A DNA stretch of 24,813 bases, taken from IMG/VR virus record IMGVR_UViG_3300034102_003360, positions 1 through 24,813 of that record, one strand, 5' to 3'. This DNA comes from a virus. Numbering within the stretch: position 1 is the first letter of the stretch; each line of letters opens with the position of its first letter. A program made the translations under genes and the position numbers. Positions 7,816 through 21,999 of this stretch are shown here, piece after piece. A model generated the notes under the pieces. The model was not told the origin of the DNA. It did no database searches and was given only the letters and a program-made list of their open reading frames with translations.

Positions 7816-8418
7816 ATGTTTAAAGACGATTTATATGAGGTTGTTCGAGGAGCGTTATCTAAAGATTTGTGTCAGCATTTAGATACAGAATTTGAATTAT
7901 TAAAGCAGCTAACCTATTTACAGGGTGGACAAAGCGAAGAAAACAAATTTATGTTTGGCGATAGTCAAGTTACAAATAGTTTTGCTTATTACGGGGCACT
8001 ATGCTTTGAATCCTTAGCTTTGCAGATGCAACCGTTGATAGAAAAGATTACAGGCAAATCTTTGTATCCGACATATACATATGCGAGGATTTATTATAAC
8101 GAAGCAACAATGGCAATACATAAAGATAGACCAAGCTGTGAATTTTCAGCAACAATTAATATTACGATAGATGAAAAGCCATGGGAAATTTGGTTTGAGA
8201 ATTTGCAAGGTGAGCATAAAGCAGTTGAATTATATCCCGGCGATTTAATTGTATATAAAGGCGATACATTGAATCATTGGAGAGATGCTTACAAAGGTCA
8301 GCGACAAACACAAGCATTCCTACATTATGTAGACAAAAAAGGTAAATATAGAGATTATAAATTTGACAAAAGACCACACTTAGGTCTATCCGCAAATGCA
8401 AGGAGCGTCAATTTATGA
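7816..8418 (+). CDS. 2-oxoglutarate/Fe(II)-dependent oxygenase
   Basis: A 200-residue oxygenase with the Fe(II) facial triad H102-x-D104 (AIHKDRPSCEF) and H154 (LNHWRD). R163 or a neighbouring residue in GQRQTQAFLHYV is the likely 2-oxoglutarate ligand. The double-stranded beta-helix region spans roughly residues 85-172, with PGDLIVYKGD before the second His. The family hydroxylates proteins, nucleic acids or small molecules; the substrate here is unknown. The ATG starts one base after the exonuclease stop, and the stop overlaps the heme oxygenase ATG (ATGA). Its position next to an Fe-releasing enzyme is suggestive but does not prove a shared pathway. Confidence 0.86.
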   Translation: MFKDDLYEVVRGALSKDLCQHLDTEFELLKQLTYLQGGQSEENKFMFGDSQVTNSFAYYGALCFESLALQMQPLIEKITGKSLYPTYTYARIYYNEATMAIHKDRPSCEFSATINITIDEKPWEIWFENLQGEHKAVELYPGDLIVYKGDTLNHWRDAYKGQRQTQAFLHYVDKKGKYRDYKFDKRPHLGLSANARSVNL

Positions 8419-8945
8419 GCACATTAAAAGAACTAACTGCAGATAAACATAGAGAAGCAGAGTCTCAACCTTTTCTAAAAACAATTTTTGCCGGCAATGT
8501 AGATGAAGCAAAATATACGGACTATCTATATCAATTATTATTGGTGTACCAAACTTTAGAGAATTATGCAGATGATTTGAATTTGTTTGAGGGTATTGAA
8601 GATATAAAAAGATCAAGAATGATTGAGCTGGATTGGGTAGAACTATTAGGAGATGCTCCTAGCGGACATCTAAACAAATCAACTATCAATTACTTAGATT
8701 ATATTAATAGCATTAAGAACGATAAACAAAAGCTCATGGCTCATGTTTATGTCAGACATATGGGTGACCTATTCGGCGGGCAAATGTTAGCGAAGTTATT
8801 GCCCGGTAGTAATCATATGTATAAGTTTAATGATGTACCTAACCTTATTAAAGGCATTAGATCTAAGCTTGATATATCACTTGCAGATGAAGCTAATGTA
8901 GCTTTTGACTATAATATAGATATGCTAAAAGATTATAATGATTGA
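8415..8945 (+). CDS. ho1: Heme oxygenase
   Basis: It cleaves heme to biliverdin IX-alpha, CO and Fe2+. The proximal heme ligand is His12 in TADKHREAE, matching the conserved TxxxHxxAE segment. The distal helix carries HVYVRHMGDLFGGQ (110-123), with Gly117, Asp118 and GlyGly121-122, equivalent to the GDLSGGQ signature. The 176-residue length is slightly short for the family (about 200-240). No hydrophobic C-terminal anchor is seen, so it should be soluble. The start overlaps the oxygenase stop, and its 3' end overlaps the start of the bilin reductase by eight bases. This directly links biliverdin production to its reduction. It needs an electron donor such as ferredoxin, not encoded in this window. 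Confidence 0.93.
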   Translation: MSTLKELTADKHREAESQPFLKTIFAGNVDEAKYTDYLYQLLLVYQTLENYADDLNLFEGIEDIKRSRMIELDWVELLGDAPSGHLNKSTINYLDYINSIKNDKQKLMAHVYVRHMGDLFGGQMLAKLLPGSNHMYKFNDVPNLIKGIRSKLDISLADEANVAFDYNIDMLKDYND

Positions 8946-9615
8946 AATTTGGCCACAGGCAAATGATTTTGCCAATAAGCTAATTGATAGCTTTAAACAA
9001 TATGATAAAGAAGATATTGATGACAAATATTATCATATAGATAAAAATTTTAGATGGGAAAATTACGTTTGGACCAGTAAAAATTTTAGACGAGCTCATA
9101 TTGAAATTGTAGACGCAACTGAAAGTAAAAAGATGTGGGTTATGCATATGTGTATATTCCCGCATTACAATGACCCGTCACCTATATTTGGTTTCGATAT
9201 TGTTTGTGGTAAGAATAAAATTACTGGTGCATTTCATGATTTTTCAAAAGTAGATGATTGTTATTTGTACAAAACATATCTAAATAGAATGGAAGGGTTG
9301 AATTGGTCTAAACCTAGAGAATTGCCTGATTGGGCAAAACAAATATTCAGTCCACAAATGTTGGCAGTTGGTAATATTCAAACACAAGAAGAATTTGATC
9401 AACTAACAAAAACAGTTATTGACAATCTGCAATTATACATTTATAATATAGGTGTTAGGTATGCAGATAAAGATTATAAAGAACAACATAATCATTATTG
9501 TAAATATCAAAAAATGAATCCTCATACACCTGCTATGATGGTAAACTTTGGCGTGAATAAAGATGTCTTTACTCAATTTATGAACGATGTCTTATTCCAG
9601 GAAAAACATGAATAA
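8938..9615 (+). CDS. pcyX: Ferredoxin-dependent bilin reductase, PcyX-like
   Basis: It probably reduces biliverdin to a phycobilin using ferredoxin. The protein (225 aa) has the core pattern HIEIVD (E56), MHMCIFPHY (H70), PSPIFGFDIV (D87) and GAFHDFS. The H70-D87 spacing of 17 equals that between His88 and Asp105 in PcyA. The C-terminus YQKMNPHTPAMM...MNDVLF is typical of the family. Position 195 is Pro, where PcyA (Asp220) and PebS (Asp206) appear to have Asp. Assignment to PcyX rather than PcyA or PebS rests on the adjacent heme oxygenase, the T4-like non-photosynthetic context and my recollection that PcyX was found in uncultured marine phages and makes phycoerythrobilin. Family is confident; subtype is moderate. 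Confidence 0.87.
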   Translation: MIEIWPQANDFANKLIDSFKQYDKEDIDDKYYHIDKNFRWENYVWTSKNFRRAHIEIVDATESKKMWVMHMCIFPHYNDPSPIFGFDIVCGKNKITGAFHDFSKVDDCYLYKTYLNRMEGLNWSKPRELPDWAKQIFSPQMLAVGNIQTQEEFDQLTKTVIDNLQLYIYNIGVRYADKDYKEQHNHYCKYQKMNPHTPAMMVNFGVNKDVFTQFMNDVLFQEKHE

Positions 9616-9877
9616 CGAATTAGAACCATATATCTTAACCGATAGTTTAGTAATAACCAAAAAATTTAGATCCCCTAATGAATTTTCTCTTTACATTGAG
9701 GAACGAGTAGCTAAAGAAAGTATCGGCTACATGGATGCAATTATACAATACTGCGGAGAAGTTGACATTGATGTTGAATCTATATCTAAATTGATTAATC
9801 AATCTCTAAAGGATAGAGTACAATTAGAAGCAGAAGAAGGTAACTACTTTAAAAAGAGGGGAAAATTACCACTGTGA
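9608..9877 (+). CDS. gp33: gp33-like late promoter transcription accessory protein
   Basis: In T4, gp33 bridges RNA polymerase and the sliding clamp gp45 and is required for efficient late transcription with gp55. The 89-residue product has FRSPNEFSLYIEERV, then IGYMDAIIQYC, SISKLINQSLKDRVQLEAE and a C-terminal NYFKKRGKLPL, the pattern of gp33 homologues in marine T4-like phages. Gene order (gp33 then gp59, then gp32 further on) is the same as in T4. I chose ATG 9608 because AGGA at 9599-9602 is five bases upstream; the earlier ATG at 9587 lies within pcyX without a ribosome-binding site. It overlaps the pcyX stop. Its presence agrees with the TATAAATA promoters in the window. Confidence 0.82.
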   Translation: MNNELEPYILTDSLVITKKFRSPNEFSLYIEERVAKESIGYMDAIIQYCGEVDIDVESISKLINQSLKDRVQLEAEEGNYFKKRGKLPL

Positions 9878-11913: not shown

Positions 11914-13659
11914 TTATCTAAGCTTACCGTATGTGATTTTATATAAATCCAGTGTTGCTTCATGTATAGATTTAGGAGCTGCTGCGGAAAATGGCATAGG
12001 TGCACTTGCTGTTTGATTATTGTTATTGTTGATTTGTGTTATAACATCACCAGCTTTATCCATACCTGCACCCACTAAATCTGCAGTTTCAGACGCCATT
12101 TCTTTTAATACTTTTGCAGTCGCGGTGCCTAAACCTGGGGCTAAGTCTAACATTTCTGTTTTACCGTCGACAGTTATCGGAAATTGAAAAGCGCTATCTA
12201 TAAGCGATATAGTTTTATCTCCCAATGGAGCTAAAAAGTCATCAACAAGAGAAAGTGCCGATTTAGCCATTTTGCTAAAACCGTCTTTCATAGTTTTTAT
12301 AGAATCTTCCACTAAATCTTTGCCCTGCTGCAAATAAAAATCTGTCATACTCGGATAATATTTTCCATCCGAACCTTTAAACATTTCTTCTCCAGATTCA
12401 CTAAACATACCGGGAATAGGTTTTACAGTATTTTTACTCATATCCTTTTTTTCTTGCATCAATTCTCTTCGAGGATCCGTTTCAGCAAATTTTTTACGAT
12501 TTTCATTTGCTTTTTCTTTTTGTATCATGCCTTCAAGTATTTTGTCTTCTTCTGGGCCGGTCATATTGGCAATTGACAATGCAGTTGCGCCAAAGCCCAA
12601 CATACTAAACAGTGCGGCTAAATTGCTGCCTCGAGCTGCAGCTGCAGCTGCGGCTGAAGTGGCTCTGCCTCCAGCTGCAGCTGAAGTGGCTCCTGATCTA
12701 GTAGTTTCTCTTAGTATTTTTGCATCTTCTATAGCTTCACTAGCATTAGATAATAAAGGAAATCTTCCTCTGGGTAATCTTTTTTGACTATTGGGGGGAC
12801 TGGTTGTTTTTTCTCCGTTAACAACTACAGGTGGTATAGCGCCGCCGCCGCTACTAGGCGAGCCTTGTCTATTTTTATTAAGATCAAAATCACCCCCTCC
12901 AAAAGCTTTAGTAAGTTGGTCAAGAACAAATTTGATGCTGGCAAGAATACCTGTTAATACACCTGCTATTGCTGCACCTATAGGACCTGCTAATGCCGCA
13001 ATAGCCGAAACTACTGATCCCGCTAATCCGACGATTCCTGTTATTATCCCGCCTATTGCACTAATAATTCCTGTGCCTAATACTGCCCCAAAGCCTGTAA
13101 GTGCCCCCAATAAACCTTTAAGTAATCCACCGCCACCGCCACCTCCGTCGCTGCCGTTTATTCTTTCGGCAATAGCAGTAGCTAGTAATTCACGTTCTTT
13201 GGCTCTTGCGCTGTCTGAATATTTTTCTCGTATAAATCCAATATCGCTACTAACTAATTCTGTTAGACTAAGTATTTGCGATGTATCATCCATCATCTTT
13301 TGTTGATATTTAGATGGACCAAATAATTTACCCATCATATTTCTAAAGAATCCCTTATCGTCGGAATTCTTATTAGAATTATTTCCTACATTTGGTCTTT
13401 CTCTAAAATTGCTCTTATTCTTTTCAAAGTATTTTTTGATTTCTGAAAGATTAGATCCTTGGCCTTGCAATAATGTTTTTCCCATCTCTTGCATGTCTTT
13501 TCGAAGACTTTGAAACTCTTTGTTTTGTTTCATTAGTCTGTCGGAAACAGTATGTAATACTTTAGTTTGTCCTTGCAAGTTCTGCGTTTGTGCATTTACA
13601 GCTTCAAGCAATATTCTATCAGTATTAGTAACACCCTGAGGATTTTGAGGTAAGGCCAT
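11914..13659 (-). CDS. Tail tape-measure / gp29-like protein
   Basis: A 581-residue protein (T4 gp29 is 590) that probably sets tail length and sits in the baseplate hub. The N-terminal 80 residues look coiled-coil (LHTVSDRLMKQNKEFQSLRK). A run of seven Gly (172-178) precedes a hydrophobic Gly/Ala/Ile/Leu region (about 179-248, e.g. GIISAIGGIITGIVGLAG), as in many tape-measure proteins that enter the host membrane. An Ala-rich repeat (322-344) is followed by a second hydrophobic stretch near 345-366. The C-terminal part is amphipathic. It immediately follows gp26 and the frameshift extension, the usual place of a tape-measure gene after its chaperones. Identity is inferred from composition, length and order; another baseplate protein is possible. 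Confidence 0.72.
   Translation of the reverse strand: MALPQNPQGVTNTDRILLEAVNAQTQNLQGQTKVLHTVSDRLMKQNKEFQSLRKDMQEMGKTLLQGQGSNLSEIKKYFEKNKSNFRERPNVGNNSNKNSDDKGFFRNMMGKLFGPSKYQQKMMDDTSQILSLTELVSSDIGFIREKYSDSARAKERELLATAIAERINGSDGGGGGGGLLKGLLGALTGFGAVLGTGIISAIGGIITGIVGLAGSVVSAIAALAGPIGAAIAGVLTGILASIKFVLDQLTKAFGGGDFDLNKNRQGSPSSGGGAIPPVVVNGEKTTSPPNSQKRLPRGRFPLLSNASEAIEDAKILRETTRSGATSAAAGGRATSAAAAAAARGSNLAALFSMLGFGATALSIANMTGPEEDKILEGMIQKEKANENRKKFAETDPRRELMQEKKDMSKNTVKPIPGMFSESGEEMFKGSDGKYYPSMTDFYLQQGKDLVEDSIKTMKDGFSKMAKSALSLVDDFLAPLGDKTISLIDSAFQFPITVDGKTEMLDLAPGLGTATAKVLKEMASETADLVGAGMDKAGDVITQINNNNNQTASAPMPFSAAAPKSIHEATLDLYKITYGKLR
12628..12696 (-). repeat. Ala-rich low-complexity repeat inside the tape-measure gene
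   Basis: Two imperfect copies of a unit encoding GATSAAA / RATSAAAAAA, visible on the plus strand as repeated CTGAAGTGGCTC and a GCTGCA run. It is in frame, so copy-number changes would alter linker length without breaking the protein. Confidence 0.6.
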
Positions 13660-13661
13660 TT

Positions 13662-13859
13662 TTATTTACCGCTCTTTAGTTGTTTTTGTTTAAGTTTTTC
13701 ATTTTCTTCACTAACATGATTAATTAACATAGTAACGTAAATATCTCTTTCCCATGGAATCATATTTTCTATTTCGGTTAAAGAATAATGATGATGCTGC
13801 ATCAATGAAAAGTTTAACTGAAAATAGTTAAGAAGTCCTTCATGGGAAAGAGTTAGACG
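13662..13859 (-). CDS. -1 frameshift extension of gp26 (lambda gpT-like tail chaperone segment)
   Basis: An open frame with no ATG at its 5' end, overlapping the end of gp26. If ribosomes slip -1 at the heptamer 13859-13865, gp26 residues 1-229 continue with 65 more residues: RLTLSHEGLLNYFQLNFS, LMQHHHYSLTEIENMIPWER, then DIYVTMLINHV and a charged tail. The NYFQLNF...HHHYSLTEIE...PWERDIY pattern looks like real coding sequence and resembles the short conserved segment that follows gp26-like proteins in related phages. The only internal ATG starts (13802 and later) would cut off the conserved part. The stop TAA (13662-13664) is two bases before the tape-measure ATG. By analogy with lambda G/GT it would be a tape-measure chaperone. 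A separate short protein is the alternative. Confidence 0.65.
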   Translation of the reverse strand, partial: RLTLSHEGLLNYFQLNFSLMQHHHYSLTEIENMIPWERDIYVTMLINHVSEENEKLKQKQLKSGK

Positions 13860-14545
13860 AAAAAATTCTGTAATCCCTCAAGCGTCAATTCATTGTGAGC
13901 ACCACACGAAGGACAATCCTGTTCAACGTGTTGTACTACTTTTGGCATAGTTACAAAGAAGTTTTCTAACATTCCAAATTGTGCTTTGGAGAATCCATTA
14001 ACAAACTCTGTCAATTCCTCTGTAGTATAATCGTCGTATATTTTCTCTTCGGTATAAATTGCTTTAATACATTTACACAACAAATCTACAATCTTATCAG
14101 ATTTAAAGTTTTGATAAATTTCGAGCATCTCTTCAAATTTAGGATACCGCATTTCAATCATGATCTTATCTGTGATATTAAGTTTTGATGAATGATCTTT
14201 ATCTTTTTTAACTTCTGCCTTTGTTATATCTAAGTCAAAGTTAATTTTATTTTCGCAATTATTACATTGTAAAGATAGATTCGCAGTTTCACCTATTGAC
14301 TTTGCTCTCATATTAAGGAAGATATATTCTACATCAAAGTTTGCTACTTCTTCCATATTCAATTTATTGAACGTGCATATATCTACTAATTCAGTTATTA
14401 CTCGTTGAATCTCTTCATTATCCGATTCCAAAGCTGTTAAAAGAATTTTATATTCTCTAACTAGGAATGGTCGATACTTTATCTTTTCTCCGGATGAGGG
14501 TAAAGTCAATTCATATGTTGGGGTTTCTAATTTAGGCAATGCCAT
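13853..14545 (-). CDS. gp26: gp26-like baseplate hub / tail assembly protein
   Basis: A 230-residue protein of the T4 baseplate (gp26) family. The opening MALPKLETPTYELTLPSSGE and RPFLVREYKILLTA are typical of marine T4-like members. Two CxxC pairs, Cys94/Cys97 (CNNC) and Cys211/Cys214 (CPSC), suggest a zinc site. FDVEYIFLNMRAKSIGE and MRYPKFEEMLE are further family-like segments. AAAAGGA lies just upstream of the ATG. It acts in assembly of the baseplate hub and, by position, probably with the tape-measure protein as a chaperone. The gene ends with a slippery heptamer that may fuse it to a 65-residue extension. It lies 16 bases after the tube-like gene in the leftward late operon. Confidence 0.85.
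   Translation of the reverse strand: MALPKLETPTYELTLPSSGEKIKYRPFLVREYKILLTALESDNEEIQRVITELVDICTFNKLNMEEVANFDVEYIFLNMRAKSIGETANLSLQCNNCENKINFDLDITKAEVKKDKDHSSKLNITDKIMIEMRYPKFEEMLEIYQNFKSDKIVDLLCKCIKAIYTEEKIYDDYTTEELTEFVNGFSKAQFGMLENFFVTMPKVVQHVEQDCPSCGAHNELTLEGLQNFFV
13859..13865 (-). other. Slippery heptamer U UUU UUC for -1 frameshifting
   Basis: On the minus strand the gp26 codons read AAT TTT TTC GTC TAA, giving the canonical X XXY YYZ heptamer T TTT TTC in the correct phase, one codon before the stop. A -1 slip leads directly into the extension frame. A 6-bp hairpin (TTAACT/AGTTAA, 13831-13814) lies about 27 nt downstream, farther than the usual stimulator spacing. Confidence 0.65.
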
Positions 14546-14561
14546 TGTATATCCTTTTCAG

Positions 14562-15272
14562 TTATTTGCCCGAATTCCAGGCTTTTCTTTCTTCAGATGT
14601 AAGCGGTCCTCTTCTAGACAAACCGTTGTTAAATTCATTTCGTTCTTGTTGAGTTAGAATTGTTGTTACCGGTCTTCTATTATTGCTTCCCGGCAAAATA
14701 ATACCGCTCGACATTTTTGCAGCTATCCATTTTCTATAAGCAAATGTTACATTTAATTTATGTACTTGATTTTGCGTGCTATTATTTAATTCCATCATAG
14801 CAACAGACCTTGGGAACGCTTCTATCAATTCCACTGCATATGTAATATTATTCTTTTCATCTAATTGATCTATTTTTATAGATGCAGCATATTCGGATTG
14901 ATAACTAACATAGTATTGATTCGGGTTTACAATCTTAGCCATCCAAGAGTCAAAGAATGCCTTTACTTCCATTTGTTGATCTACAAGGAACGTCATAGAT
15001 ATTCCTTCTCCACCATAATCAGTACCAACTGGTCTTTGATATGCAGGACCAATAATTCTTTGTTGTTTTACATTTATTGTCTGTGTTGGAAGATTCGCAG
15101 ATTCACAAAATAAACTAACAAGACGAGAATTTTCAGATGTTAAACTATATGGACCTAACTCGGAGGAAGCTATAGACGGAGGAACAAGAATGTTAACCTC
15201 AAATCTATTTGGTTTAGCTAAACCTCTAGTTCTAACTTCTGCTTTAAATTTATCCAATGAGTGAATTGCCAT
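14562..15272 (-). CDS. Tail tube / tube-initiator-like protein (gp54/gp19 family)
   Basis: A 236-residue tube-fold protein. RGLAKPNRFEVNI at the N-terminus, CESANLPTQTI, YGGEGISMTFLVDQ, VKAFFDSWMAKIV and the closing NQVHKLNVTFAYRKW follow the layout of T4 tube proteins gp19, gp48 and gp54. In those proteins the last strand reads TTFDVTFAYRV (gp54) or QTFEVTLALDYW (gp19). Because it sits with gp26 and the tape measure, and gp48 is encoded separately to the right, I favour gp54 (initiator of tube polymerisation) over the main tube gp19. A charged C-terminal tail (LTSEERKAWNSGK) extends beyond the tube fold. It starts in a TAATG overlap with the upstream gene. Confidence 0.72.
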   Translation of the reverse strand: MAIHSLDKFKAEVRTRGLAKPNRFEVNILVPPSIASSELGPYSLTSENSRLVSLFCESANLPTQTINVKQQRIIGPAYQRPVGTDYGGEGISMTFLVDQQMEVKAFFDSWMAKIVNPNQYYVSYQSEYAASIKIDQLDEKNNITYAVELIEAFPRSVAMMELNNSTQNQVHKLNVTFAYRKWIAAKMSSGIILPGSNNRRPVTTILTQQERNEFNNGLSRRGPLTSEERKAWNSGK

Positions 15273-18068: not shown

Positions 18069-19423
18069 TGCTAGAATCTCAATTTCTTCAAAATCCCGGC
18101 CAGGTAGAAATAAAAAATATTGTTTTGTTGTCTTCGCCGAAGGGAACATATGTTAATTTATTAGATTACCTAGTAGAAATAAACATTTATGAAAGTTTGT
18201 TTAGTGGTTCTGTATCTGGGACAATAACTTTGGCTGATAGTACTAATTTAATATCCATGATGCCATTAATGGGTGAAGAATTGTTATTCATGAATATTAA
18301 AACACCGGGCATGGAGGATAAATTTAGCATATATAAAACATTCAGAATATATGCAATATCTGATAAAATTTATGGCGATGATGCCAGCAAATTAATATAC
18401 CATTTAAATTTTACAACAACAGAAACATTTAATGATTTAAACAATCCTATATATCGAGCTTTTGAAGGTACCCCATCTCAAATAATTACAAGAATATATG
18501 AAGATTATTTACAAGCTGATAGAAATGTTTCTTTAAGTAAAAATTTAGATGAGACTAAAAATCCTTTGACTATATTAGACAATCCTACAAATAAAATAAA
18601 GTTTGTAAGCCCAGGATGGACTCCTATACAATGTATTAATTGGATTGCTAGTAAGTCTGTCCCACAAAATAAAACTTCTGCAAATTTCTTATTCTGGGAA
18701 ACAACAAAAGGATTTTATTTTGGTAGCACGAATACATTATTCAATAATTTGGAAGAAGTGTCTTTAGGTGAGTATGTTTACTCTGAATCATATATCAATA
18801 CATTATCTATAGATGAAAGACCATTAGCAATGTTTGCTATAAAATCTATGATTATTGAGAAATCTTTTGATCAATTGGAAAATACTATGACAGGATATCT
18901 ATCTAATAGATTGTTGGATATTGATTTATATAATAAACAATATAACGAAAATGATTATGACCATATAGATAGATTTGAAGATTATCCCCATTTAAGTGAA
19001 GGAACTTCTATTCCATTAGCTTATAAAAATATTACAAGAAATCCAAAGTCGCATATACGAGTTAATTATAGTACGCCAAAGTTGCATTCAAAAATAGAAA
19101 ATAATTTTGACGAAGTAACAAAGTATATTTTTGGAAAGAGACGAGCCAGCTTAGTGGAATTAGGAAATTTTAAAATGCAAATTGTAATACCCGGAAGAAC
19201 AGACATAGAAGCGGGGACAGTTATAAAAATTAAAATTCCAAAGAAAACTCCGGGTCCGCTTGGCAATGAGGATAGAACCAGTTACGAATCAGATCCTTTA
19301 TATTCTGGATATTATCTAATAACAGACGTTGCTCATAAGATAAATCCTAAATCACATTTCACAACATTAACAATTACAAAAGATTCATTCTCGAAAAAAG
19401 CATATGATGGGATATCCTCATGA
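18068..19423 (+). CDS. gp27: gp27-like baseplate hub protein
   Basis: A 451-residue hub protein (T4 gp27, 391 aa) that forms the ring on which gp5 sits. Features seen include IKNIVLLSSPKGTYVNLLDY and LVEINIYESLFSGSVSGTIT near the N-terminus, typical of the first tube-like domain. PGWTPIQCINWIASKSV and ANFLFWETTKGFYFGS form the central domain core. The C-terminus has MQIVIPGRTDIEAGTVIKIK, then LYSGYYLITDVAHKI and FTTLTITKDS, typical of gp27/gpD-like hub proteins. It overlaps the gp5 start in an ATGA junction; the products form the hub-spike complex. It is longer than T4 gp27, as expected for the marine group. Confidence 0.86.
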   Translation: MLESQFLQNPGQVEIKNIVLLSSPKGTYVNLLDYLVEINIYESLFSGSVSGTITLADSTNLISMMPLMGEELLFMNIKTPGMEDKFSIYKTFRIYAISDKIYGDDASKLIYHLNFTTTETFNDLNNPIYRAFEGTPSQIITRIYEDYLQADRNVSLSKNLDETKNPLTILDNPTNKIKFVSPGWTPIQCINWIASKSVPQNKTSANFLFWETTKGFYFGSTNTLFNNLEEVSLGEYVYSESYINTLSIDERPLAMFAIKSMIIEKSFDQLENTMTGYLSNRLLDIDLYNKQYNENDYDHIDRFEDYPHLSEGTSIPLAYKNITRNPKSHIRVNYSTPKLHSKIENNFDEVTKYIFGKRRASLVELGNFKMQIVIPGRTDIEAGTVIKIKIPKKTPGPLGNEDRTSYESDPLYSGYYLITDVAHKINPKSHFTTLTITKDSFSKKAYDGISS

Positions 19424-21999
19424 TAATAGATAATTCTTTCACGTGGTGGACAGGTGTCGTAGAGGATAGAGACGATCCTGAAAAATTAGGTAGATGTAGA
19501 GTACGAATATTTGGGTATCATACTGCAGATACAAATTTATTACCTACATCAGATTTACCATGGGCTATTCCTTTACAATCTATTACATCGGCAGCAACTT
19601 CTGGTTTAGGACATACCCCTGTAGGTATCGTTCCTGGTACATGGGTTATGGGATGGTTCTTAGATGGTGAAGAGGCGCAGAGACCTTTAATATTAGGAAC
19701 TATTGCAGGCAAACCTATTACTTCTGCAGATGCCGTTAAAAAATTAGCTCAACAAGAAATAGAAGTTGGTTTTTTTAAAGCATCGGATGGAAAGGTAATT
19801 CGAGACGAAAATAATAATCCTATTGTTGTACCTACAAATACGACGAGCGGAATAACTGCACTACCGCCTTTAAGTGTGAATGATATAGAAATATTATTTA
19901 AAGCTATTGCAGTATCTTTATCTAATAATAATATTAGTACAGAAAGCACTACAGGCAATTTAGGCAAATATCAAATTAGTGTTTCTAGATTAATGGAATT
20001 GGGATATATTAATAGACAACGAGAAGATTCTATCCCCGAAGAATGGGCAAATTTTGCAGAAAATTGGACCGGGCAAAACGGCATAAAAACAAAGGCAATG
20101 TTTTTAGCAAATGAGAACGAACAAGAAATAGCTATGTTTGCTTCTATTAAAGAACATTATAATACTTTAATACGACTAGAAAAAATAACAGAAACGGATA
20201 ATTATAGAAACGTTGCGGGATTATTAACTGTTGCTCATGTCATGGGTGTTAATAATGCGGACAAATTAAATAAGAAAACTGAAACAGGAGTAAGAGCTAA
20301 AGATTATTTTGTACTAGGAAATAGTGCTTTGGGTGGAATAGAAACTGATTTTGTAAAATCTTTAGATAGTGCAGGTAATTATTTGCCATCGGTCAATGAT
20401 AATTCAAATGTATTAAATAACGATGAACTAAGAAAATTGCAAGGGTTCCAAGATCCAAATAAAAAATATCCTAAAATAGAATATGCAAATGTTAGTGATA
20501 TTAATAAATTAGCAGTAGGTGATACGTCTCACCTGTCTCTTTTAATAAAAGAAAATAAAAGAATAGATAAAATCCCAATTACAGGAACTCCTAAGACATG
20601 GGATGAACCTTCATCTGCGTATGGTGCAGTATATCCGTACAATCAGGTTATAGAAACAGAAGCGGGACACGTAATAGAATTAGATAGTACTCCGGGCGCA
20701 GAAAGAATACAAGTATTTCATAAAAGCGGAACTTATATAGAGGTAGATGTTAATGGTACAATGGTTAGAAAAACCGTTGGCGATAATTATGAGATATTAG
20801 ATAGAAATAATTTTACATATATTAAAGGTGCCCACAATTTAACCGTTGAAGGGCAAACCAATATTTTTGTCAAGGATGATGCAAAGATAGAAGTGGATGG
20901 CGATTTATCTGTAGTTGGGCACGGTAAAACATCTGTTGCTACAGCAGGAACCGCATCTGTTGTTGCTGAAAATTTTATTGTATCCGCCGATAAAAGTATT
21001 ACGATGGTTACGAATGGAGACTTTAATATACAGGGTAAAGATATTAATCTGTATGCTAAAGGTGGTTCTATGACACAAAAAGCATCTGGCGATATTTCTA
21101 TGGAGTCGGGAACAACAGGTACATTTAGTATAAAAGGTGGATTGGCATTATTATTAGATGCAGCAATAGTTAAAACTAAAATGGGTGCCAATAGAGTAAG
21201 AGAAATTGCATACGCAGTATTACCAAGACCATCTAGTAAAACTCCGGATAATACTGAAGTACCAGTATTGCCAAGAGAAATATTAGCCAAGTCTAATTAC
21301 TTATTTGATTCTAATGAAGATAATGCTAGCACATATCAACAGCTATTAGAAAAATCTGGATTAATTAATAGCAAAATGAGGACTAAAATTTCCACTACAG
21401 ATTCAACTTCTCAAAATTCTAGTAGTACGGGCAATCCCGAATTAATTGTAAATTCGGATCTTAACGAAATAAGACAATTTAAATATTTTCCAAGATCATT
21501 TATATTATCCAAAAAAGAAAATAGAATATTTACACTTGGGGATATGTTACAAGATGGCGGTTTAACAGCGCAACGAGGATTAACAGAACAGCAAATTGTT
21601 TATAATTTAAAACAACTAGTAGTTAATTGTTTAGATCCTATTAAAGCCAAATATCCAGATATGAAAATAACCAGTGGCTTTAGATCTAGTACTTCTCAAG
21701 TATTCGGAAGTATATCCGAGAAAAGCGATCATGGATTGGGTGCAGCTGCAGATATTAAATTTACTAATACAGATAAACGAGAATATAAAGCAATTGCAGA
21801 ATGGATCGTAGCAAATGTTCCACACCGACAGATAATATTAGAATATTACTTTCAACCCGGAAGTAGTAAATTAAAATCTGCTTGGATTCATGTATCATTT
21901 TTAACATATGATGGATCTTTGGTAAAATCTTCATATCCTAACGTACAAACATTCGTTAACCATCAGTCTAAATATACTAAATTGGTTAACTTGGCATAA
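19420..21999 (+). CDS. gp5: gp5-like baseplate hub spike with lysozyme-like and M15 peptidase domains
   Basis: An 859-residue spike protein (T4 gp5, 575 aa). Residues 8-100 form the OB-fold (TWWTGVVEDRDDPEKLGRCR, then VPGTWVMGWFLDGEEAQRPL). Residues about 150-300 resemble a lysozyme/transglycosylase module: E175 in TESTTGNLGKYQISVSRLME, with later W216 and QEIAMF. Residues about 395-600 are the triple beta-helix stem, with short strand repeats such as GDLSVVG, GDFNIQGKDINLYAKG and GDISMESG. Residues about 700-859 look like an M15 peptidase: ITSGFRSS, SDHGLGAAADIKF (H771, D778), E808 and WIHVS (H824) as zinc and catalytic candidates. It would pierce and locally digest peptidoglycan at infection. 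OB and stem are confident; the enzyme domains are likely. Confidence 0.88.
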   Translation: MIIDNSFTWWTGVVEDRDDPEKLGRCRVRIFGYHTADTNLLPTSDLPWAIPLQSITSAATSGLGHTPVGIVPGTWVMGWFLDGEEAQRPLILGTIAGKPITSADAVKKLAQQEIEVGFFKASDGKVIRDENNNPIVVPTNTTSGITALPPLSVNDIEILFKAIAVSLSNNNISTESTTGNLGKYQISVSRLMELGYINRQREDSIPEEWANFAENWTGQNGIKTKAMFLANENEQEIAMFASIKEHYNTLIRLEKITETDNYRNVAGLLTVAHVMGVNNADKLNKKTETGVRAKDYFVLGNSALGGIETDFVKSLDSAGNYLPSVNDNSNVLNNDELRKLQGFQDPNKKYPKIEYANVSDINKLAVGDTSHLSLLIKENKRIDKIPITGTPKTWDEPSSAYGAVYPYNQVIETEAGHVIELDSTPGAERIQVFHKSGTYIEVDVNGTMVRKTVGDNYEILDRNNFTYIKGAHNLTVEGQTNIFVKDDAKIEVDGDLSVVGHGKTSVATAGTASVVAENFIVSADKSITMVTNGDFNIQGKDINLYAKGGSMTQKASGDISMESGTTGTFSIKGGLALLLDAAIVKTKMGANRVREIAYAVLPRPSSKTPDNTEVPVLPREILAKSNYLFDSNEDNASTYQQLLEKSGLINSKMRTKISTTDSTSQNSSSTGNPELIVNSDLNEIRQFKYFPRSFILSKKENRIFTLGDMLQDGGLTAQRGLTEQQIVYNLKQLVVNCLDPIKAKYPDMKITSGFRSSTSQVFGSISEKSDHGLGAAADIKFTNTDKREYKAIAEWIVANVPHRQIILEYYFQPGSSKLKSAWIHVSFLTYDGSLVKSSYPNVQTFVNHQSKYTKLVNLA

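Follow-up and report, generated by a model that had tools for sequence, protein, structure and literature searches.

A conserved slippery heptamer and a probable -1 ribosomal frameshift between gp26 and a gp51-type extension in T4-like phages

How is a reading frame translated when it opens inside the 3′ end of another gene and offers no early start codon of its own? The question is raised by the tail gene region of IMG/VR virus record IMGVR_UViG_3300034102_003360, a sequence of 24,813 bases with ends classed as ‘linear’, analysed here over its whole length and called the window below. There, the gene for a homologue of T4 gp26 is followed by an overlapping frame, the extension, which a preliminary description of the sequence had proposed to be joined to gp26 by a programmed -1 frameshift. 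Comparison with related loci indicates that this is very probably the case: gp26 would be the short form, and the product of a -1 slip, ending in a gp51 domain, the long form of a pair of chaperones.

On the minus strand the gene order is tail tube, gp26, extension and a tape-measure-like open reading frame (ORF). The features are as follows.

14562-15272, minus strand: tail tube protein, 5′ of gp26 (PHROG 45, E=2.4e-41).
13853-14545, minus strand: gp26, putative short tail assembly chaperone (TAC) of 230 amino acids, zero frame (ORF; PF12322 T4_baseplate, E=1.8e-59; PHROG 150, E=1.6e-62; AlphaFold model with a predicted local distance difference test score, pLDDT, of 88.6 and suggestive TAC-fold matches).
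13876-13879, minus strand: Shine-Dalgarno-like GAGG, 10 nucleotides 5′ of the heptamer (sequence; xAGG is found family-wide).
13859-13865, minus strand: slippery heptamer T TTT TTC, putative site of a -1 tandem slip (sequence and conservation).
13853-13855, minus strand: zero-frame stop codon TAA of gp26, one codon past the heptamer (a spacing of one codon in 155/169 loci).
13836-13851, minus strand: possible short downstream hairpin UCUUUC / GAAGGA, 7 nucleotides past the heptamer, weak (z of -1.10 in the window; stronger in other lineages).
13662-13859, minus strand: gp51-type C-terminal extension, -1 frame, 65 amino acids plus stop (PHROG 634, E=1.5e-27; base 13859 is shared by the two frames).
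11914-13659, minus strand: tape-measure-like ORF of 581 amino acids, beginning 2 nucleotides past the extension stop (named from position and size).

The 3′ end of gp26 reads CAG AAT TTT TTC GTC TAA, and the heptamer T TTT TTC is therefore in zero-frame phase, with one sense codon between it and the stop. The preliminary description had recognised this U UUU UUC correctly; its coordinates are 13865-13859. It had also seen an open -1 frame, from 13877 to a stop at 13664-13662, that encodes 65 residues after the slip (13859-13665); the coherence it ascribed to this segment is backed by the match to PHROG 634 (baseplate hub assembly catalyst, gp51), which covers positions 58-118 of 121. As it stated, the -1 frame holds no start codon before TTG 13805, which is followed by ATG 13802 (extension residues 18 and 19). 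If the slip occurs, the predicted long product has 229 + 65 = 294 amino acids. Two bases past the extension stop the description had seen a tape-measure-like gene: an ATG does stand there, at 13659, while the label goes no further than position and size, as neither a significant family match (Pfam/PHROG-type profile searches) nor a relative by tblastn in phages was obtained for this ORF.

Conservation of the heptamer across relatives had been set beforehand as a test. A first set consisted of 176 sequences, 173 of which had a gp26 ORF detectable by hidden Markov model (T4, Acinetobacter 133 and Aeromonas 25 had none on the searched strand); 3 more ran off the contig, leaving 170 readable gp26 ends, window included. 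An in-phase T TTT TT[C/T/A] was present in 169 of the 170 (C 150, T 12, A 7). The second set was made of 80 loci picked by the extension protein and 2 picked by Vibrio gp26. One of them (L256) had no gp26 on its contig, and in 81 of the remaining 81 the heptamer stood in the phase that would join the gp26 and extension frames; 9 contigs of this set of 82 also occur in the first. The window and 14 phage records inspected first, as well as 3 inspected later, all carried T TTT TTC or T TTT TTT close to where gp26 ends. Thinning the 169 heptamer-bearing loci at 80% identity gave 89 representatives, and 38 and 21 remained at less than 60% and less than 50% gp26 identity, three numbers that are all conditioned on the heptamer (the unconditioned count being 169/170). 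The heptamer therefore spans deep divergence.

Codon choice at the site is narrower than the protein would demand. The codon preceding the run ends in T in 89/89 representatives (AGT 35, AAT 23, GAT 16, TCT 12, GCT 3): different residues are encoded there (S, N, D, A), yet the final T of the codon is constant. The first Phe codon is likewise TTT in 89/89, and in the 6 representatives of 89 where the second codon has changed from Phe to Leu (TTA), the T run is retained. The probability of NNT TTT in all 89 from codon use alone is ~1e-28, independence being assumed. As a control, a Phe-Phe dipeptide elsewhere in the same gene, in the motif FFxTMP, was slippery in only 2 of 81 representatives (the motif is missing in 8 of the 89). 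A chance heptamer arising from codon use was rejected on these two figures, which point to selection on the heptamer beyond protein constraint.

The extension, for its part, behaves as coding sequence. Within the window's clade, 16 non-overlapping pairs were compared, and their nucleotide differences fall 137/36/230 at positions 1/2/3 of the -1-frame codons, so that this frame evolves as a protein. By tblastn, 546 of 50,697 phage records matched the extension at E<=0.01; most are Synechococcus phages and entries named ‘Cyanophage’, then Vibrio and Prochlorococcus phages, and also Sinorhizobium and Pelagibacter phages. Such a frame might be a separate gene 51, with its own (possibly non-AUG) start or translated by re-initiation after the gp26 stop. 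This is how most of the annotations consulted treat it: among 17 heptamer-bearing phage records none shows a joined gene, and 13 carry a separate coding sequence (CDS) over the extension, under the names gp51, hub assembly catalyst and hypothetical protein. The window also has its TTG and ATG at residues 18 and 19. However, the annotated starts disagree between records (for example locus positions 1507, 1510, 1558, 1597), and in 4 of the 17 no separate CDS covers the extension. Moreover, the first 10 extension residues, though conserved, are without ATG, GTG or TTG in 40 of 88 representatives, and a start among them combined with a Shine-Dalgarno match was found in 3 of 88 (Synechococcus phage S-SCSM1, locus L009, was omitted from this and from the synonymous folding tests, hence n=88). 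With start codons so poorly placed, an independent start was rejected as the main route to the extension, and a separate ATG-started gene in relatives, an objection that the preliminary description had raised against its own proposal, falls away. A separate gene 51 would also leave the near-invariant heptamer unexplained, and we regard it as very improbable. What is found at the locus are the attributes of a -1 programmed ribosomal frameshift site: an in-phase X XXY YYZ heptamer, and an overlapping coding -1 ORF without a start of its own.

Candidate stimulatory elements lie on both sides of the heptamer. Upstream, xAGG lies 9 or 10 nucleotides 5′ of the heptamer in 79/89 representatives (53 at 10, 26 at 9; one more has it at 19). 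The pairing of this element with the tail of 16S rRNA (mean -7.00 kcal/mol, versus -5.32, standard deviation 0.14) is stronger than in 300/300 synonymous resamplings. The Glu before a conserved Gly is coded GAG in 51 of 68 cases, versus a 25% background, and in 9 of 14 within the set of less than 50% identity.

Downstream, the 45-nucleotide stretch starting 5 nucleotides past the heptamer folds at a mean of -7.4 kcal/mol, versus -3.7 when the codons of the -1 frame are resampled synonymously (mean z -1.82; below -2 in 38/88). By the same resampling, stretches from 2 and 8 nucleotides past the heptamer are also low (mean z -1.64 and -1.31), and those beginning at least 14 nucleotides past it are near background (mean z -0.67 to 0.02). 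Dinucleotide shuffles agree, the stretch at 0 standing out with a mean z of -1.64. Five hand-picked stretches folded singly gave z values of -4.12 (P-HM2), -7.25 (S-PM2), -4.56 (locus L024), -1.88 (locus L018) and -1.10 (window). RNAalifold detected no common structure in the 89 ungapped downstream stretches; one hairpin shared by all lineages was thereby rejected, hairpin shapes being lineage-specific. In a clade of 14 rows, picked because its rows carry the hairpin, 96.1% of the hairpin pairs are kept, and both the cells paired and the covariation score are above 500/500 shuffles; only one compensatory pair was seen, a number reached by 267 of 500 shuffles. A second, smaller folding dip lies ~60-105 nucleotides past the heptamer, with a mean z of -0.85 by dinucleotide shuffle and no support from synonymous resampling (-0.28).

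Selection beyond the protein code is thus indicated for the Shine-Dalgarno-like element family-wide, and for the hairpin in many lineages. As stimulatory elements, the former is present family-wide and in the window, and the downstream structure is present family-wide and weak in the window. This family-wide signal in three parts (Shine-Dalgarno-like element, heptamer and hairpin) is the most interesting part of our observations. Its upstream element also bears on transcriptional slippage, by which RNA polymerase would slip on the T run and both proteins would be made from mixed mRNAs. The site is indeed a T run, and such slippage is known for runs of 9 A or T, according to passages of PMC5009743; here the run is six T in 82/89 representatives, closed by C or A, and the upstream element pairing with rRNA, together with the in-phase placement of the codons, indicates the ribosome. 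We therefore hold transcriptional slippage to be very improbable. Finally, the idea that a conserved Phe-Phe, together with a preference for AT-rich codons, gives rise to the heptamer incidentally, and that the extension is a degraded gene remnant, can draw on the invariance of G224, F228 and F229 in 12 aligned gp26 and on the share of TTT among Phe codons (75%), yet its chances are next to nil given the control dipeptide, the TTT and preceding T in every representative, the heptamer at all readable ends except one, and the protein-like evolution of the extension.

If frameshifting joins the two frames, what are the two products? Residues 1-93 of the gp26 model match 3fgx (Z 7.9), the HK97 tail assembly chaperone 2ob9 (Z 7.4, over an alignment of 83 residues) and YqbN, 3klu (Z 6.8), the next structural match being at Z 4.2; 3fgx and YqbN we take to be chaperone-fold proteins likewise. 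A chaperone-like fold is thus suggested for the N-terminal part of gp26. The model of a T4-type gp51 (pLDDT 90.6) has three C-terminal helices past its gp26-like part. No sequence relative of T4 gp51 was found in the PDB up to E 1, and a gp26 profile search returned only two weak MtrB rows. The equation of gp26 and its fusion with lambda G and GT, made in the preliminary description, gains support from the gene order (its last member being tape-measure-like by position and size), from homology to the T4 hub assembly chaperones gp26 and gp51 and, suggestively, from the HK97 fold match.

Most likely, then, gp26 and gp26-gp51 are the short and long tail assembly chaperones. Most ribosomes would reach the gp26 stop codon and produce the 230-residue short form, and a minority would move back by one base on U UUU UUC, producing the 294-residue long form, whose last 65 residues would be the gp51 domain. 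The slipping ribosomes would be held by the GAGG-type sequence pairing with 16S rRNA and, in many lineages, also by a hairpin right after the site. On the model of lambda gpG/gpGT and P2 gpE/gpE+E′, numerous short copies and a few long ones would attach to the tape-measure protein, bring in tail tube subunits, and then depart. That the slip takes place, and its rate, we infer from the sequence; the chaperone role would follow from the comparisons above.

Several observations weigh against this frameshift model. One readable gp26 end, at locus L126, is without the heptamer, gp26 stopping early there, and in S-SCSM1 the heptamer is present with a -1 frame that stops after 4 residues. The downstream hairpin is weak in the window's own clade (see the z of the window above), and its pair counts in that clade are not clearly above shuffles. 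The statistics assume that the sequences are independent. As to the fold, Z values below 8 may mean merely a common arrangement, as the structure tool warns, and neither the gp26 nor the gp51 model had a Foldseek match at E<=0.001, so that the chaperone-fold match of gp26 is only suggestive. Lastly, genetic studies reported in passages of PMC3004832 favour a location of T4 gp26 in the hub, where a departing chaperone would not be.

In S-SCSM1, near positions 1470-1510 of the locus, a homologous extension resumes in another frame past an apparent short insertion, which may be an assembly error or a real change.

T4 itself has homologues of both parts in another arrangement. The short form has its homologue in T4 gp26 (PF12322, E=8.8e-64; the PHROG 150 match of T4 gp26 goes only to 235), which has no heptamer. 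T4 gp51 matches PHROG 150 over 13-280 of 282 and, in addition, PHROG 634; it is therefore a gp26-like protein that continues into the extension without a change of frame. Profile comparisons gave E=1.2e-8 for the extension against the gp51 C-terminus, and E=1e-8 for gp26 against gp51. Thus T4 has two separate paralogous genes, whereas the window has one locus with a frameshift junction, a homologue of the T4 genes but not their arrangement. In T4, Acinetobacter 133, Aeromonas 25, a Krischvirus, 44RR and IME13, the gp26 and gp51 genes are divergent, on opposite strands. Klebsiella phage CP-p-KP-21068 (locus L264, 1501-2792) carries a gp51-type gene and a gp26-type gene one after the other on the same strand, the gp26-type protein being only 184 amino acids long.

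Vibrio phage nt-1 and two related contigs (~245 kb) retain the frameshift arrangement. In a tree, T4-type gp26 and gp51 are joined (support 0.962) beside the nt-1 frameshift type. The tree is unrooted and long-branched, and it is compatible with one duplication in the T4 group. Tentatively, and at somewhat less than even confidence, we propose that T4-like phages outside the T4 group use a three-part, dnaX-like signal whose hairpin has repeatedly been formed anew in one position and in varying shapes, meaning that the slip rate would be under selection, and that the T4 group left frameshifting once, through a duplication into gp26 and gp51. In the passages of PMC3004832 on these proteins, T4 gp26 and gp51 are both listed as hub assembly chaperones; gp51 is required yet absent from the particle, and the presence of gp26 in the hub is debated. 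According to passages of Sullivan et al. 2010 (PMC3037559), gp51 of cyanophages and marine vibriophages seems short of the first ~200 residues of T4 gp51. The frameshift model would explain this, as gp26 would supply the missing ~200 residues. It would also offer a natural comparison of two ways to hold a short-to-long ratio, by slip rate in one lineage and by gene duplication in T4.

Elsewhere in the window, on the plus strand, a heme oxygenase gene (8415-8945, PF01126) is followed by a ferredoxin-dependent bilin reductase gene (8938-9615, PF05996); these are bilin pigment genes, known from cyanophages. The same strand encodes a phage late-transcription coactivator (9587-9877, PF16805) and, at 19420-21999, a gp5-like hub protein; at about residues 718-796 the latter resembles an M15 peptidase, with an E of 2e-4 that falls short of the curated cut-off.

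Lambda-type frameshifting is stated in passages of PMC5009743 to be widely conserved, T4 excepted, and the word ‘frameshift’ is absent from the PMC3037559 passages. A passage of the phage Adele paper (PMC12846349) treats poly-T frameshift signals in T4-like chaperone genes as known, citing Vladimirov et al. 2022, and a passage of the PRFect paper cites the same article (Vladimirov, Gautam and Davidson 2022) for separate short and long genes in some T4-like phages; its title refers to a mechanism other than frameshifting. Our literature search returned no readable primary description of a gp26/gp51 frameshift in T4-like phages, the 2022 article being known to us only through its title and citations. 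Given the papers that cite it, the T4-like chaperone frameshift has probably been published already, and the doubt about novelty voiced in the preliminary description was justified.

Four systems invite comparison. The E. coli dnaX cassette comprises a Shine-Dalgarno-like sequence, a heptamer and a stem-loop, in this order and at set spacings; the T4-like loci have all three elements family-wide, the hairpin of the window being weak. The stimulators of dnaX frameshifting are mentioned in passages of PMC5009743 and PMC7618472. According to the former, its heptamer is A AAA AAG and its shift shortens the product, whereas in the window the shift would extend it. In Vandenendeviridae and Andersonviridae, which are other families, passages of the phage Adele paper (PMC12846349) report chaperone genes in which the short gene has an invariant GTTTTT close to its 3′ end and the -1 frame stays open beyond it. 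Phage P2 gpE/gpE+E′ has nearly the same heptamer as the window, its site being GGT TTT TTG in the zero frame, that is T TTT TTG (locus L302, 2179-2185); its long form is about half the length of the one predicted here. A relatedness of the P2 E′ extension, in which H[WY]xxxE[IL]xxM looked alike by eye, was dropped, BLASTP and hhalign giving no significant similarity. Lambda gpG/gpGT, whose chaperone role is described in passages of PMC5009743, is likewise a short and a -1-shifted long chaperone encoded between the major tail protein and the tape measure gene; its site, gcg gga aag or G GGA AAG, is unlike the T TTT TTC of the window, and the likeness is known from the arrangement.
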